Origin: Pseudidiomarina halophila
GTDB lineage: Bacteria > Pseudomonadota > Gammaproteobacteria > Enterobacterales > Alteromonadaceae
Direction: 5' to 3'
Assembly (NCBI RefSeq): GCF_003987215.1
Contig: NZ_PIPW01000002.1
Location: 558,001-622,000 of the forward strand
DNA: 64,000 nucleotides
This document shows positions 23,340 through 54,671 of the stretch, one piece after another. The position numbers and the translations under genes are program-made. The first letter of the stretch is position 1; every line of letters begins with the position of its first letter. Below the pieces are notes generated by a model. It had not been told where the DNA came from. It was given only the letters and a program-made list of their open reading frames with translations, and ran no database searches.

Positions 23340-23351
23340 GTACTTGATGTT

Positions 23352-24119
23352 ATGGCAGACGAACGATTTTCAGGTGTGGAGCGCGTGTATGGCGCGCATG
23401 AATTTAGTCGCTTTCAGCAGCATCATGTGGCCGTGATTGGTCTTGGTGGCGTGGGCTCGTGGGCGGTGGAGGCGTTGGCGCGTTCGGGCGTGGGCGGAAT
23501 TACACTGATCGATCTCGACGATGTTTGCCTGACTAATATTAACCGGCAACTACCGGCGATGACGAGTACTGTTGGGCAGCTGAAAACTGAAGTGCTGGCG
23601 CAGCGGGTGCGGGATATTCATCCTGATTGTCAGGTGCGGGTGATTGACGATTTTCTGGCGCGGGAAAATCTGGATGATTATCTGGGTGAGCCGGTGACGG
23701 CGGTGCTGGATGCGGTGGATAGTGTGCAGGTTAAAGCTGCGTTGATTGCCTGGTGTAAGCGCCGTAAATTGCCGCTGGTCACCTGCGGTGGTGCAGGCGG
23801 TCAGGTTGATCCGGGCAAGGTGACGTCTGCGGACCTTGCTAAAGCGTCGCAAGACCCATTGCTTGCCAAAGTGCGCTCAATGCTGCGGCGGGATTATAAT
23901 TTTTCGCGTAATCCGAGCCGTAACTTTGGCGTAAAAGCGGTGTACTCAACAGAGCAGTTGCGTTATCCGGTGGGTGACGGCACCTGGGATCACGCAAAAC
24001 CTGGAGCTGGCTCCATGCGTATGGATTGCAGCACCGGATTCGGCGCGGCGATGCCGGTGACCTGTACCTTTGCGATGCACGCGGTGGCGCTGTTATTAGA
24101 AAAACTGGAACGTAAATGA
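23352..24119 (+). CDS. tcdA: tRNA threonylcarbamoyladenosine dehydratase TcdA (CsdL)
   Basis: A 255-residue E1-like enzyme that dehydrates t6A37 of tRNA to its cyclic form. The nucleotide-binding VIGLGGVGSWAVEALARSG and the adenylation motif DLDDVCLTNINRQ are present, with CGGAGGQVDPGKV toward the middle. In E. coli the gene is linked to csdA and csdE, which deliver sulfur; here a csdE-like gene is 0.5 kb away on the opposite strand. The stop overlaps the DUF1543 gene by ATGA. Confidence 0.95.
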   Translation: MADERFSGVERVYGAHEFSRFQQHHVAVIGLGGVGSWAVEALARSGVGGITLIDLDDVCLTNINRQLPAMTSTVGQLKTEVLAQRVRDIHPDCQVRVIDDFLARENLDDYLGEPVTAVLDAVDSVQVKAALIAWCKRRKLPLVTCGGAGGQVDPGKVTSADLAKASQDPLLAKVRSMLRRDYNFSRNPSRNFGVKAVYSTEQLRYPVGDGTWDHAKPGAGSMRMDCSTGFGAAMPVTCTFAMHAVALLLEKLERK

Positions 24120-49843: not shown

Positions 49844-51322
49844 ATGTTACCTGTTGTGGCCCTGGTCGGCCGCCCGAATGTGGGCAAATCCACCCTGTTT
49901 AACCGGCTCACCCGAACTCGGGACGCACTGGTAGCTGACTTTCCTGGTCTCACACGTGATCGTAAGTACGGTCGCGCCAATTACGATGGGTATCAGTTCA
50001 TCGTTATCGACACCGCGGGTGTGCATGGCGATGAAGAAGGTATCGACGCTGAAATGGCGTCGCAATCGTTACGTGCTATCGATGAAGCTGATGTTGTGCT
50101 CTTTATGGTTGATGCCCGTGACGGTATTACCAGCGCCGATATGGCCATTGCTAAGCATTTACGTAGTATCGGTAAAAAAGCCTACGTCGTGGCGAATAAA
50201 ATCGACGGCATTGACGCGGAAGCTGCGCAGGCTGATTTCTACGAACTTGGGCTGGGCGAAATCTATGGTATCGCTGCGGTTCACGGACGTGGTGTTGAGC
50301 AATTGCTCGATAAATGTTTTGCGCCGTTAATCCAAGACTATCCCGAAATGGCCGTCGCCCGCAGTTCTACTGCGGGGGATCCCGACGATGAGCAGAATGG
50401 CGTTGATGAACCCCCGCCAGATCTCGCCCACGACGAAATCGACTATGATGCGTTGCCATTAAAGCTTGCTATCGTCGGCCGCCCGAATGTTGGTAAATCT
50501 ACCTTGATTAACCGCATCCTTGGCGAAGAACGGGTGGTAGTTTTTGATATGCCCGGCACCACTCGTGATTCGATTTACATTCCGATGGAGCGGGATGGCC
50601 GTGAGTACATTCTGATTGATACCGCTGGTGTGCGTCGCCGTGGGAAAATCGATGAAACCGTTGAAAAATTCTCAGTTATCAAAACCCTGCAAGCGATCGA
50701 TGATGCCAACGTTGTCATCTGCGTGATCGATGCCCGGGAAACCATTTCTGATCAGGATTTAAACCTGATTGGATTTGCCCTGAATGCCGGACGTTCTATC
50801 GTTATCGCGGTCAACAAGTGGGATGGTTTGACAAATGACGACCGCGAAGAGATCAAACGTGAACTGGATCGCCGGCTTGGTTTCGTTGATTTTGCCCGTT
50901 TGCACTTTATCTCTGCGTTGCATGGCAGTGGCGTCGGTAATTTGTTCGAATCTGTGCTTGAAGCCTATGCCAGCGCGACCCAAAGGGTCAGTACCTCAAA
51001 GCTGACTAGAATTCTGGAAATGGCGGTCGACGAGCATCAACCACCGCTGGTGCGTGGACGCCGCGTGAAGCTGAAATATGCGCACGCCGGAGGCTACAAT
51101 CCACCGCGGATCATTATCCATGGTAACCAGGTGGAGGATCTGCCAGGCTCCTATCAGCGTTACCTGATTAACTATTTCCGTAAATCTTTAGGCGTTATGG
51201 GCACCCCGATCAAAGTCGAGTTCCGCGAGTCGGAAAATCCCTTTGCCGGGCGCAAAAACAAACTGACCATGACCCAGCAGCGCAAACGCAAGCGCCTCAT
51301 GCGCTTCATCAAAAAGCGCTAA
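49844..51322 (+). CDS. der: Ribosome assembly GTPase Der (EngA)
   Basis: A 492-residue protein with two tandem GTPase domains, each with GRPNVGKS (residues 8-15 and about 211-218), and a C-terminal KH-like domain ending in a basic tail ([17 protein letters not shown]). It is needed for 50S assembly. The acidic inter-domain linker (about residues 165-205) contains a REP sequence that encodes VARSSTAG. Translation starts 2 nt after bamB. Confidence 0.97.
50354..50377 (+). repeat. REP element in frame inside der
   Basis: GTCG followed by CCCGCAG-TTCTA-CTGCGGG, then G: same 24-bp length, same loop and an intact 7-bp stem compared with the intergenic REPs, with two paired base changes. Eight codons (171-178) are read through without a stop. 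Confidence 0.8.
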
Positions 51323-51337
51323 CCCCCTGTTGTAGTG

Positions 51338-51444
51338 GTAGCCCGTAGTTCTACTACGGGTCCAACCTACCGCATCAGCAATGCCGGCAGTTGCAGACAC
51401 AATCGCAAAGTTCCAATCTGATCCGTACTAGAAGTACGGGCTAC
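51338..51444. repeat. Left arm of the 107-bp inverted repeat (REP pair)
   Basis: A forward REP at 51338-51361 and an inverted REP at 51423-51444 enclose about 60 bp. The whole 107 bp is the reverse complement of 52464-52570 with about six mismatches. It lies between der and hslR, which converge. Confidence 0.92.
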
Positions 51445-51462
51445 AGCACATTCTCTGAACGC

Positions 51463-51837
51463 TTAGCGCTTCATCTTCATTAATTCGCGACGCTCTTTTT
51501 TATCCGGCTTGTGGTCCGGGTGCGGATTGTATAACGCGTTCATCTTACGCAATTCCGCTTCTTTTTCCCGACGCTCAACCGAATCGGAAGTCTCCGCATA
51601 AAGCTTCTGTGCCTCGGGCGCACCGCGCCGCTGATCGCTTAACTCCAGCACTTCAACTTCCATGATGTCGCTACCTTTGGCTAACTTTATCAGTTGCCCA
51701 ACGGTAATAGTCTTAGCCGGTTTCGCACGTTGGCCATCGACCTGCACTTTACCTGCTTGCACCTTTTCCCGTGCCAGCGACCGCGTCTTGTAAAAGCGTG
51801 CCGCCCATAACCATTTGTCCAGGCGTACATTTTCCAT
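51463..51837 (-). CDS. hslR: Ribosome-associated heat shock protein Hsp15
   Basis: A 124-residue S4-domain RNA-binding protein. It starts MENVRLDKWLWAARFYKTRS, with AGKVQVDGQRAKPAKTI as the core of the S4 fold and a basic C-terminal tail (PDKKERRELMKMKR). HslR binds stalled 50S subunits with nascent chain after heat shock. It is 12 nt downstream of rayT and separated by 0.95 kb from hslO, its usual neighbour. Confidence 0.93.
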   Translation of the reverse strand: MENVRLDKWLWAARFYKTRSLAREKVQAGKVQVDGQRAKPAKTITVGQLIKLAKGSDIMEVEVLELSDQRRGAPEAQKLYAETSDSVERREKEAELRKMNALYNPHPDHKPDKKERRELMKMKR

Positions 51838-51849
51838 ATTGAACCTTTG

Positions 51850-52404
51850 CTACTGTTCGTGGCTTCCGAAAACGTCATCAAGCCAGGTTGGATTTATATC
51901 TGCCCAATCGGCCGGGTATTTTCCGCTTGCCAAAAATGTATTAAGTGTTGAATAAGGCCATAACCGCGCATTTTCAACATAACCATGCTTAACCGGATTA
52001 TAGCAACAATAGAGAATATATAATTCGTATTCACGGTCGTTTCGGATGGTGTGTTCCCAGTATGAATGATGCCAAAGGGCGCCATTCCCGCGGCGATGGC
52101 GGGCGGTCGAATTCTTATGAGTTGCTGAAGCGTTCGTAAACTCCTTTAGTGCCTTGGTTGTAAGAGATTTAATTTTGCGCCAACGAATTGGGATATCCTC
52201 GTCATGCACGATCCAAACACAATGCATGTGGTCAGGTAAAACGACCCACGCCTCTATTTCAAAGGGATGAGTTTTCATCGTTGCGCGTATGGCATTGCGC
52301 AATGCGGCCATAAAAGTCTGGGTAGCAAAGAAAGGCTGGCGGCGGTAACTGGTTACTGTAAAGAAGTAATACCCGCCTTCGTAATAACGTCGTACGTTTC
52401 TCAT
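51850..52404 (-). CDS. rayT: REP-associated tyrosine transposase (RAYT)
   Basis: A 184-residue Y1-type (HUH-like) nuclease starting at ATG 52404 (MRNVRRYYEGGYYFFTVTSY). The metal-binding LPDHMHCVW gives His59 and His61; the likely catalytic Tyr is Tyr132 in LYCCYNPVKHGY; WHHSYWEHTIRND is also typical of TnpA-REP. All motifs are intact, so it is probably active. RAYTs cleave and copy REP hairpins rather than move as ordinary IS elements. REPs with the GTAG lead, and a tandem array, flank this gene. It lies 12 nt upstream of hslR and shares its transcription direction. Confidence 0.95.
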   Translation of the reverse strand: MRNVRRYYEGGYYFFTVTSYRRQPFFATQTFMAALRNAIRATMKTHPFEIEAWVVLPDHMHCVWIVHDEDIPIRWRKIKSLTTKALKEFTNASATHKNSTARHRRGNGALWHHSYWEHTIRNDREYELYILYCCYNPVKHGYVENARLWPYSTLNTFLASGKYPADWADINPTWLDDVFGSHEQ

Positions 52405-52463
52405 ACGCAAAGCATGCGCGACTGCGGCAAAATTTACGACCTTAAAAATTTGTAGGCAATCAC

Positions 52464-52570
52464 GTAGGCCGTACTTCTAGTACGGGTCAGATTGGAACTT
52501 TGCGATCGTGTCTGCAACTGCTGGCATTGCTGATGCGGCGGGTTGGACCCGTAGTAGAACTACGGGCTAC
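52464..52570. repeat. Right arm of the 107-bp inverted repeat (REP pair)
   Basis: A forward REP (52464-52487, GTAG, GCCGTAC-TTCTA-GTACGGG) and an inverted REP (52548-52570) around the same spacer as in the left arm. It begins 60 bp before the start of rayT on that gene's upstream side. The stretch 52405-52790 has no gene and consists almost entirely of this arm and the following tandem array. Confidence 0.92.
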
Positions 52571-52746
52571 CGATATGGATTCGAACGCTCCAGTAATGTC
52601 TGCAGCGGCTGGCATTGCTGATGCGGCGGGTTGGACCCGTAGTAGAACTACGGGCTACCGATATGTATTCGAACGTTCCAGTAATGTCTGCAGTGGCTGG
52701 CATTGCTGATGCGGTGGGTTGGACCCGTAGTAGAACTACGGGCTAC
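52571..52746. repeat. Tandem array of 88-bp REP-bearing units
   Basis: Two complete 88-bp units follow the right arm; inverted REPs lie at 52548, 52636 and 52724, exactly 88 bp apart. The units share CTGGCATTGCTGATGCGG and ATTCGAACG..CCAGTAATG with a few substitutions. Confidence 0.9.
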
Positions 52747-52790
52747 CCGATATGGATTCGGCCATTGCGATTATGTAGGAAGTAGACGTG

Positions 52791-53618
52791 TTACAGGTCG
52801 CCTTCGGTGAAGCGGTAGTCGGTGAGACAGTAGTCGCAGGTCATGACGATTTCGCCATCCTCCGCCAGCATGTCAGCGATTTCTTCCGGCGATACCGTGG
52901 CGAGCGCTGCAAGGGTGCGCTCACGTGAACAGCCGCAATGGAAATTAACGCGCTGGGCACCATAAAGCTCAACCCGCTCCTCGTGATACAAGCGGTGCAG
53001 AATTTCTTCGCCGTGCAGGGTAAAGAGCTCGTTCGCAGTCATGGTCGCGGTTAAGGTTTCTAAATGCTGAAACGCACTCAGGTCATTACCGGCTGCCGGT
53101 AAAACCTGCAACATCATACCGGCTGCATACTCACCATCAGCATGTAGCCAGATGCGCGTGTGTAGCTGCTCTGACTGCGCGAAGTAATTTTCCACTACCG
53201 TGGCCAGGCTATCCGCATTGGCATCAACCACGCCCTGATAGCGCTCGCCCTGTTCGGGAGTAATGGTGATCACCATCACCGCTTTGCCAAATAACGTCCG
53301 AAAATCATTTTCGTCGTCGGCAATTTCGGCGCGTACCCGCGCAAGTCCACGAAGGTCCTGTTCATGAGAACCATTCACGGCAATAAAGTTAATTGGCCCG
53401 TCACCCTGAACTTGTAGGTTGATGTGCCCCTCAAACTTCAGGGTCGCACTTAATAATGCCGTCGTCGCCATCAGTTCACCGAGCAGGCGCTGCACGGGAG
53501 CGGGGTAGTTGTGGCCTTGCAACATGCGTTGATAACTGGTACTTAATTGCACAAGTTCTCCGCGCACATCTTGCTCGGAAAAGGTGTATCTATAGAGTTG
53601 GTCGGTGGGGTAATTCAT
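52791..53618 (-). CDS. hslO: Redox-regulated chaperone Hsp33
   Basis: A 275-residue chaperone activated by oxidative unfolding. The C-terminal zinc centre is present: FHCGCSRER and MTCDYCLTDY (C-x-C and C-x2-C). The N-terminal domain contains YPAPVQRLLGELMATTALLSATLKFEG. It diverges from gspC. In relatives I know, hslR is adjacent; here the REP array and rayT lie between. Confidence 0.96.
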   Translation of the reverse strand: MNYPTDQLYRYTFSEQDVRGELVQLSTSYQRMLQGHNYPAPVQRLLGELMATTALLSATLKFEGHINLQVQGDGPINFIAVNGSHEQDLRGLARVRAEIADDENDFRTLFGKAVMVITITPEQGERYQGVVDANADSLATVVENYFAQSEQLHTRIWLHADGEYAAGMMLQVLPAAGNDLSAFQHLETLTATMTANELFTLHGEEILHRLYHEERVELYGAQRVNFHCGCSRERTLAALATVSPEEIADMLAEDGEIVMTCDYCLTDYRFTEGDL

Positions 53619-53750
53619 TTCACTTCATCACTATGTAATATTTTGTACGCATAATACCATATTCGCCCAATTTGATCTGTTCAGTTCGCAGTTAAGGGGT
53701 TAGAATGACTTTCAACTCTGTGTTGTCACAAAATTATAACGAAACCAAAC

Positions 53751-54671
53751 ATGCAGATTCAGAACCCACAATTAAAGCGCTTCACTTTTCTCGCTACTCA
53801 ACCGCGTATCGTACGCTTGGTGCTGTGGGTGCTGACCGCTATTTTTGCGATCTACGCAGTTTGGCTGCTGGCACAACTCACCTGGCAATTAGCCGCTCCG
53901 GCGAGTGCACCGGCAAGCGGACCTGTTGCAGTACAATTGCAGCAACAAAATACTGCGGCCAGCGGCTCGCTGCGAGGCCTTGCTGATCTCGAGCTGTTCG
54001 GGGCAACCCTGACCACCGCAGGCTCTGTACGCAACGCACCAAAAACCACTTTGAACGTCCGCTTATTAGGTGTTTCGGCCAGCACAGTGCCGGAACGTTC
54101 AGCGGCAGTTATTGAGCGAAATCGTAACCAGGATACTTACGTTATCGGCGACAAGATCACCGATACTCAGGTTTCTATTGAACAGATCTACGCCGACCGT
54201 GTCATTCTTAATAATAACGGGGCATTGGAGACACTTGAACTCGAAGGTATTGGCGAGCTGAGTCAGGGAGTAAATCTTACCCTGCCCAGTCAATTGCCAG
54301 AGCGCGGAACTGATGAAGAGCCGCTGATGTCCGATGAGGAACTGAAAGCCGTCTCTGAAGCGCAAAGTGCTTATCGCGAATTACGGCAGGGCGATACGAC
54401 TGCGTTGCTCGATTACATTCGTATTCGCCCCGAGATGTCAGGTCAAACCCTAACAGGATATCGCCTGAGCCCGGGCAAATACCCTGAAGTTTTTACCAAC
54501 GCCGGCTTTCAAGCAGGTGATATTGCCGTGGCAATAAACGGCCAGGATTTAACGGACATCGCCAGTGCCCAGGTGGCAATTGGTGAATTGCGCAACGCGC
54601 AGCAGATCATTGTGACTGTATTGCGCGGAGACGAATATCTCGATTTAGAACTAGCTGTTCCGAGCGAGTAA
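53751..54671 (+). CDS. gspC: Type II secretion protein GspC
   Basis: A 306-residue inner-membrane protein: cytoplasmic N-terminus, one transmembrane helix (about 22-46), a homology region domain (LADLELFGATLTTAG.. then VRLLGVSAS), and a C-terminal PDZ-like domain with FQAGDIAVAINGQDLTD. It connects the inner-membrane platform with the GspD secretin. First gene of the gsp operon; the divergent gap to hslO is 132 bp. Confidence 0.92.
   Translation: MQIQNPQLKRFTFLATQPRIVRLVLWVLTAIFAIYAVWLLAQLTWQLAAPASAPASGPVAVQLQQQNTAASGSLRGLADLELFGATLTTAGSVRNAPKTTLNVRLLGVSASTVPERSAAVIERNRNQDTYVIGDKITDTQVSIEQIYADRVILNNNGALETLELEGIGELSQGVNLTLPSQLPERGTDEEPLMSDEELKAVSEAQSAYRELRQGDTTALLDYIRIRPEMSGQTLTGYRLSPGKYPEVFTNAGFQAGDIAVAINGQDLTDIASAQVAIGELRNAQQIIVTVLRGDEYLDLELAVPSE

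Follow-up and report, generated by a model that had tools for sequence, protein, structure and literature searches.

REPs have mostly been treated as passive or regulatory repeats, and REP-associated tyrosine transposases (RAYTs) are, to our knowledge, maintained as single-copy genes without a recognized benefit. Invertons and shufflons are invertible DNA, in which a segment between inverted repeats occurs in both orientations. A RAYT gene flanked by inverted REPs is presented as the usual arrangement in passages of Nunvar et al. (PMC2817692), so the association of RAYTs with REPs, which the original prediction for this locus gave as known, is indeed published and that part alone is not unusual; exceptions, in which the gene is flanked by long terminal repeats or stands without REPs, appear in parts of two other papers (PMC3733652; PMC6006769). 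REPs can also recombine and cause rearrangements, according to a passage of PMC8450116. The inversion passages seen in PMC3390384 and PMC8450116 concern other matters, and in the titles and abstract openings of the open-licence papers listed for REP, BIME, REPIN and RAYT we found no description of the inversion of a RAYT locus.

The locus described here lies in a window of 64,000 nucleotides (the whole stretch of DNA that was analysed) from a marine bacterium. It resembles a REPtron, as outlined in excerpts of PMC2817692, PMC6006769 and PMC3733652, in having a single-copy Y1 RAYT gene, inverted GTAG-headed REPs, a BIME-like array at one end and lineage-specific REP variants, but a host gene, hslR, lies within its REP boundaries, and in relatives the segment or hslR has turned round. 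As in the REPIN/BIME units described in part of PMC3116915, two inverted REPs with a spacer fold into a hairpin and units occur in tandem, whereas here two arms sharing a spacer are oppositely oriented about a gene pair. The likeness to the REP-REP recombination mentioned in PMC8450116, again in a single passage, lies in the REPs as rearrangement substrates, the difference being that here a gene-scale inversion recurs at one locus. When compared with invertons and shufflons, the segment between inverted repeats is likewise found in both orientations (among relatives), but it carries no site-specific recombinase and its inversion belongs to an evolutionary time scale. Inverted REPs on either side of rayT are nothing unusual; the enclosed host gene that turns is. 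A stress gene next to the RAYT appears to have been turned repeatedly by the RAYT's own repeats, amid about 37 kb in which no other mapped gene is turned in 13 relatives. The pattern suggests that, over evolutionary time, repeats of this type are able to invert the gene beside them, and the locus provides a concrete system for studying gene rearrangement by REPs and RAYTs and its possible dependence on RecA or the transposase.

rayT and hslR between inverted REPIN arms

The features of the locus, in window coordinates, were the following.

49844..51322, plus strand: der (EngA GTPase), left flanking gene (open reading frame, profile)
51338..51444, plus strand: left REPIN arm (REP-spacer-REP), 107 nt (repeat search, BLAST, folding)
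51338..51362, plus strand: REP, GTAG head and palindrome (repeat search, pattern scan, folding)
51420..51444, minus strand: inverted REP, variant palindrome (repeat search, pattern scan)
51463..51837, minus strand: hslR (Hsp15, ribosome-associated heat-shock protein), enclosed host gene (NF007673, 156.3 bits, cut-off 148)
51850..52410, minus strand: rayT, REP-associated tyrosine transposase (NF047646, 155.9 bits, cut-off 80)
52464..52570, minus strand: right REPIN arm, inverted copy of 51338-51444 (94%)
52578..52665, minus strand: second 88-nt BIME-like unit, with a REP at 52634-52658 (89%)
52666..52753, minus strand: third 88-nt BIME-like unit, with a REP at 52722-52746 (80%)
52791..53618, minus strand: hslO (Hsp33), right flanking gene (open reading frame, profile)

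The repeat search returned 51337-51444 against 52464-52571 as an inverted repeat of 108 nt, 94% complementary and with a gap of 1019 nt, and self-BLAST gave E = 2.2e-36. Both arms were built from two palindromes in opposite orientation, with a spacer between them and GTAG heads at the outer ends, and the two palindromes of the left arm (51338-51362 and 51420-51444) were 88% complementary to each other. Folding of the arms as single-stranded DNA yielded -23 and -25.1 kcal/mol (z scores of -5.60 and -5.23), beating 200 of 200 shuffles; both arms thus had the two inverted REPs, spacer and hairpin of a REPIN. As the original prediction had it, a 107-bp inverted repeat of REP-spacer-REP composition (51338-51444 and 52464-52570) is present, and solely rayT and hslR lie between its arms, as judged by open reading frames and profile matches. 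The same prediction spoke of a symmetrical inverted BIME pair, and this description had to be given up, since the left side is a lone REPIN and the right side a short BIME-like array with two further 88-nt units (52578-52753), which makes the arms unsymmetrical.

The strict REP pattern occurred at 32 sites in the 2.62-Mb genome (15 on contig C1, 15 on C3 and 2 on C4), against 0 for the reversed-pattern control. Arms at unrelated sites had been named in advance as evidence against a special unit; the long arm was not found elsewhere in its own genome, where, the adjacent array aside, at most 52 of its 107 nt were covered among the 28 matches listed (E <= 0.001).

The rayT frame opens with TTG, followed by an ATG two codons downstream, and its stop is separated from the start of hslR by 12 nt. 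The product carries a Y1/IS200-like domain (PF01797, 28.4 bits, cut-off 23) and, together with the family profile and a single match in its own genome (single copy), this identifies the gene as a RAYT. Being bounded by inversely oriented GTAG-headed REPs, the gene also has the outline of a REPtron, its 3'-side REP lying beyond hslR. Eight RAYTs of the genus scored over the cut-off. Seven of these adjoin hslR as intact genes (in the window genome, G007, G021, G015, G004, G022 and G025), and all seven loci showed inverted matches outside the rayT-hslR pair on both outer sides; the eighth RAYT (G014, 52%) has no adjoining hslR. An eighth genome with rayT beside hslR is G010, in which the gene is reduced to a fragment; this 3' fragment (L060) stands with REPs next to hslR, and der and hslR are 2.4 kb apart. 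REP variants differed between rayT lineages. Where rayT is missing in other members of the genus, loss is a better reading than mobility. For vertical descent, the RAYT tree covered seven genus sequences, with support of 0.158 at their base, and 3 of 18 outside RAYTs.

Orientation of hslR among relatives

The genus sample comprised 26 genomes, the window genome included, with one genome per species. hslR was detected in 22 of the 25 relatives, with one match in each of 23 genomes. The three relatives in which no hslR was found were G020, which is incomplete, and G008 and G009 (L239, L240), each 99% complete, where about 60 nt separate der from hslO. The order der-hslR-hslO-gspC was kept in 21 comparable relatives, while hslR had the orientation of the window in 16 of them and was turned in five (G024, G022, G025, G005 and G019). 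Both orientations, as expected of an invertible element, are therefore present among relatives, and the fixed single orientation that would have spoken against the original prediction does not exist in the genus. In G014 (L241), hslO and hslR were turned jointly as a block, and der and hslO are about 3.8 kb apart.

Using bamB, der, hslO and gspC, we built trees with FastTree (22 taxa) and IQ-TREE (27 taxa), and on both of them the orientation of hslR required at least five changes by parsimony. The root state in the IQ-TREE tree was the window orientation, several deep nodes of this tree being weak (37-69%). Three clades with 100% support in IQ-TREE, namely G004/G025, G013/G024 and G022 with G012/G017, each held both orientations, indicating a separate change in each, given correct assemblies. 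No signal came from shuffling the orientations among the tips of the tree, every shuffle needing at most five changes, because five flipped tips can never require more than five. Outside the genus, hslR and hslO shared a strand, with hslR ahead, in 76 of 76 named loci that contain both genes, among the at least 80 loci listed; the remaining four of 80 comprised two without hslO and two from the genus itself. The order in Idiomarina (L112, L113) is der-hslO-hslR-gspC, which, compared with the order in the window genus, indicates that hslR switched sides of hslO on the way to the genus.

The key comparison was that of G004 with G025, in which the flanks were collinear on the plus strand at about 90% identity, while 1.4 kb with rayT and hslR aligned on the minus strand at 91%. 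From left to right, der and rayT point rightwards and hslR and hslO leftwards in G004, whereas in G025 der and hslR point rightwards and rayT and hslO leftwards. The plus- and minus-strand alignments overlapped inside the REP arms, so the exchange point must fall there, and the inverted arms measured 128 nt at 94% in G025 and 254 nt at 76% in G004. The original prediction of an invertible unit was thus supported on an evolutionary scale, in relatives rather than in the strain of the window (hslR in 5 of 21 relatives, the segment in G004/G025). No site-specific recombinase gene is present in the segment. Between G004 and G025, dS was 0.09 for rayT, 0.25 for hslR, 0.42 for hslO and 0.47 for der, and the value of rayT below those of its neighbours points to exchange of the segment between the two lineages, a secondary signal for which the counts in the Fisher test were back-calculated from rounded identities. 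In the comparison of G022 with G025, rayT (DNA identity 0.81) and its neighbours (0.78-0.82) were similarly diverged. The G004/G025 pair makes the question of gene rearrangement by REPs and RAYTs directly testable.

Proposed inversion between the arms, and REPs as possible bystanders

We consider it probable, at roughly 60%, that the locus is a REPtron that encloses the host gene hslR and is occasionally inverted by recombination between its arms. A single-copy RAYT gene would be bounded by inverted arrays of its own REPs, enclosing its neighbour hslR; local REPIN/BIME amplification around rayT would build long, similar arms in opposite orientations, and these may supply homology, or serve as fold-back or template-switch sites in replication, so that the enclosed segment would invert sporadically. 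Since the site lies between the converging der and hslO, hslR is tolerated in either direction, and a turned hslR moves from behind hslO to behind der, on the same strand in each case, which is predicted to give it a different transcription partner. The process looks sporadic and not programmed, and general recombination is more likely to be its cause than catalysis by the RAYT. With a length of 107 nt, the arms are short for an exchange that depends on RecA, and this counts against recombination between them. We tentatively suggest a further possibility, that REPIN arrays around a RAYT are an inversion hot spot at which the captured hslR has been repeatedly shuttled between the hslO and der units, a REPtron-driven swapping of operons that RAYT nicking might trigger.

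Whole-segment inversion as the sole process was rejected, since hslR also turns relative to rayT and in rayT-free genomes; inversion from arm to arm does not by itself account for every state (hslR versus rayT in G022 and G025). Compared with the window type, the group of G022, G025 and G004 has hslR turned with respect to rayT and no REP separating the two genes; REPs are present between rayT and hslR in G007 and G021. That this turn used intergenic REPs since lost is a guess.

To control for orientation, 46 window genes were followed in 13 of the 22 relatives, all five flipped ones included, resulting in 488 gene cells with the same orientation and 7 turned: hslR in 5 of 13, rayT in 1 of 5 and the gene at 23340-24116 in 1 of 4. 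Outside hslR and rayT, 1 of 477 gene cells was turned in these 13 relatives, no control gene standing between converging neighbours as hslR does, and the 36 genes mapped from 27025 to 64000 (about 37 kb; hslR and rayT excepted) were turned in 0 of the genomes in which they were located. Across about 230 kb aligned between G004 and G025 (pieces of at least 300 bp), there was one other inverted piece, of 737 bp at 74.6%. This piece (L278, G004:C9:413214-413945) lies among small open reading frames that are separated by non-GTAG palindromes in inverted orientation.

Intervals of 300-5000 bp bracketed by REPs numbered 20 in G004, 20 in G025 and 5 in G022. Between G004 and G025, all 20 and 20 were matched and one was inverted in each, the rayT-hslR interval, and when G022 was compared with G004, one of the five was inverted, again rayT-hslR. 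In G025 the arms of this interval reached 128 nt at 94%, against at most 45 nt at 80% or more, or otherwise at most 129 nt at 67%, in the other 19, and in G022 they reached 260 nt at 91%, against at most 50 nt in the other four. Those of G004 (187 nt at 71%) were the longest but not the most alike, others showing greater similarity over at most 46 nt. Three of the 20 intervals of G004 and 1 of the 20 of G025 gave no inverted arm match at all.

Canonical REPs occurred in the der-hslO interval of all six genomes with rayT (39 REPs in total) and of none of the eight without it, among 14 genomes covered over 60-64 kb each. In a scan for REP remnants, where gaps below 23 nt were unscorable (9 of 44 sides), longer gaps were trimmed to 900 nt and mononucleotide shuffles served as the control, clear REPs or remnants were present on both sides of hslR in G000, G021, G007, G010, G015, G004, G022, G025 and G024. 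One-sided traces were detected in G002 and, weakly, in G019 (2 of 100 shuffles), and none in the other 11 genomes scanned, some of their gaps being too short to score. By raw counts, flips were found in 3 of the 9 genomes with two-sided REPs and in 2 of the 13 without.

These results bear on a second explanation, namely that hslR, a small one-gene unit between converging genes, tolerates inversions of any origin, which survive with the REPs as bystanders. In agreement with this, G005 is flipped without a REP trace in the remnant scan and G019 with nearly none, flips were not associated with the presence of rayT (2 of 8 with it and 3 of 14 without; p = 1), and inversion without GTAG REPs also occurs elsewhere, in a 5.7-kb block of G022 (G022:C1, about 487798-493665) that is inverted relative to both G004 and G025. 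The 46-gene control is compatible with such tolerance, as none of its genes has a converging setting. On the other hand, the switch points of G004/G025 fall inside the REP arms, no other interval of G025 or of G022 has arms as good as those of the single inverted one, and in G024, which is flipped and lacks rayT, REP remnants flank hslR on both sides (0 of 100 mononucleotide shuffles each), so we regard REPs as bystanders as rather unlikely. By eye, the open reading frames in the block of G022 resemble a large transporter and a LysR-type regulator, and inverted repeats of about 96 nt (78%) flank the regulator-like one.

RAYT catalysis, switching and mobility as less likely readings

The frame of rayT is open, and its translation contains HMH and YNPVKHG stretches, which we take to be a putative HUH motif and the catalytic tyrosine. 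The product matches a solved TnpA-REP (PDB 4er8) with E = 2.5e-34, and dN/dS was low: of the window-type and G004/G025 pairs, the three that gave a usable value ranged from 0.04 to 0.11. The open frame, these stretches, the low dN/dS, the TnpA-REP match and arms carrying the enzyme's own REPs would all suit a mechanism in which TnpA-REP nicks REPs of the two arms while the DNA is single-stranded and then joins the segment back in reverse, and TnpA-REP does cleave and rejoin REPs, according to a passage of PMC6006769. However, an inversion made by a RAYT was not found in the titles and abstract openings of the open-licence papers listed, and the other 19 REP-bracketed intervals stay uninverted. 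Arm length seems to matter, which favours homology over RAYT catalysis, and we hold the latter to be improbable.

A programmed switch would flip the segment within populations and change hslR expression through transcripts from hslO or from der. The recurrence of both orientations would fit such a switch, as would the position of hslR close behind hslO (9-57 nt) in seven rayT-free loci (G003, G013, G016, G006, G012, G001 and G023), or 18 nt behind der on the same strand when turned, as in G005. Nevertheless, no invertase gene lies between the arms, no consensus promoter was found in 51300-53800 (sigma-70 type only; 0 against 2.8 in shuffles) and hslR was not found in G008 and G009, making a programmed switch quite improbable. 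Consensus terminators also numbered 0 in 51300-53800, against 2.5 in shuffles.

The original prediction also allowed for a mobile unit, that is, a composite REP-hslR-rayT-REP that transposes and carries hslR along. It would account for the move of hslR from one side of hslO to the other relative to Idiomarina and the remaining outgroups, for rayT being closer between G004 and G025 (dS 0.09) than der and hslO (0.47 and 0.42), and for the diverged hslR of G019 (75%, against 94% for der and hslO). Copies at other sites were sought and not found, for arm, rayT or hslR, in searches of its own genome and the genus, rayT instead standing beside hslR in seven genomes and as a fragment in an eighth; moreover, REPtrons are reported in a passage of PMC6006769 not to appear to transpose as a unit, and both the G004/G025 closeness and the G019 allele can be explained by ordinary recombination between strains. 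We therefore rejected mobility as very improbable.

The arms are inverted repeats of about 100-260 nt, on which assemblers could have turned the segment, but they differ by about 6% in G025, 9% in G022 and 24% in G004, and G005 (one contig) and G024 are turned without any inverted repeat reported around hslR, so the likelihood of an assembly error is very small.

The hslR of G019 (L070, 4594-4953), whose identity of 75% refers to the DNA of the G004 gene, seems to be an allele brought in from elsewhere, which would be another way of turning a gene.
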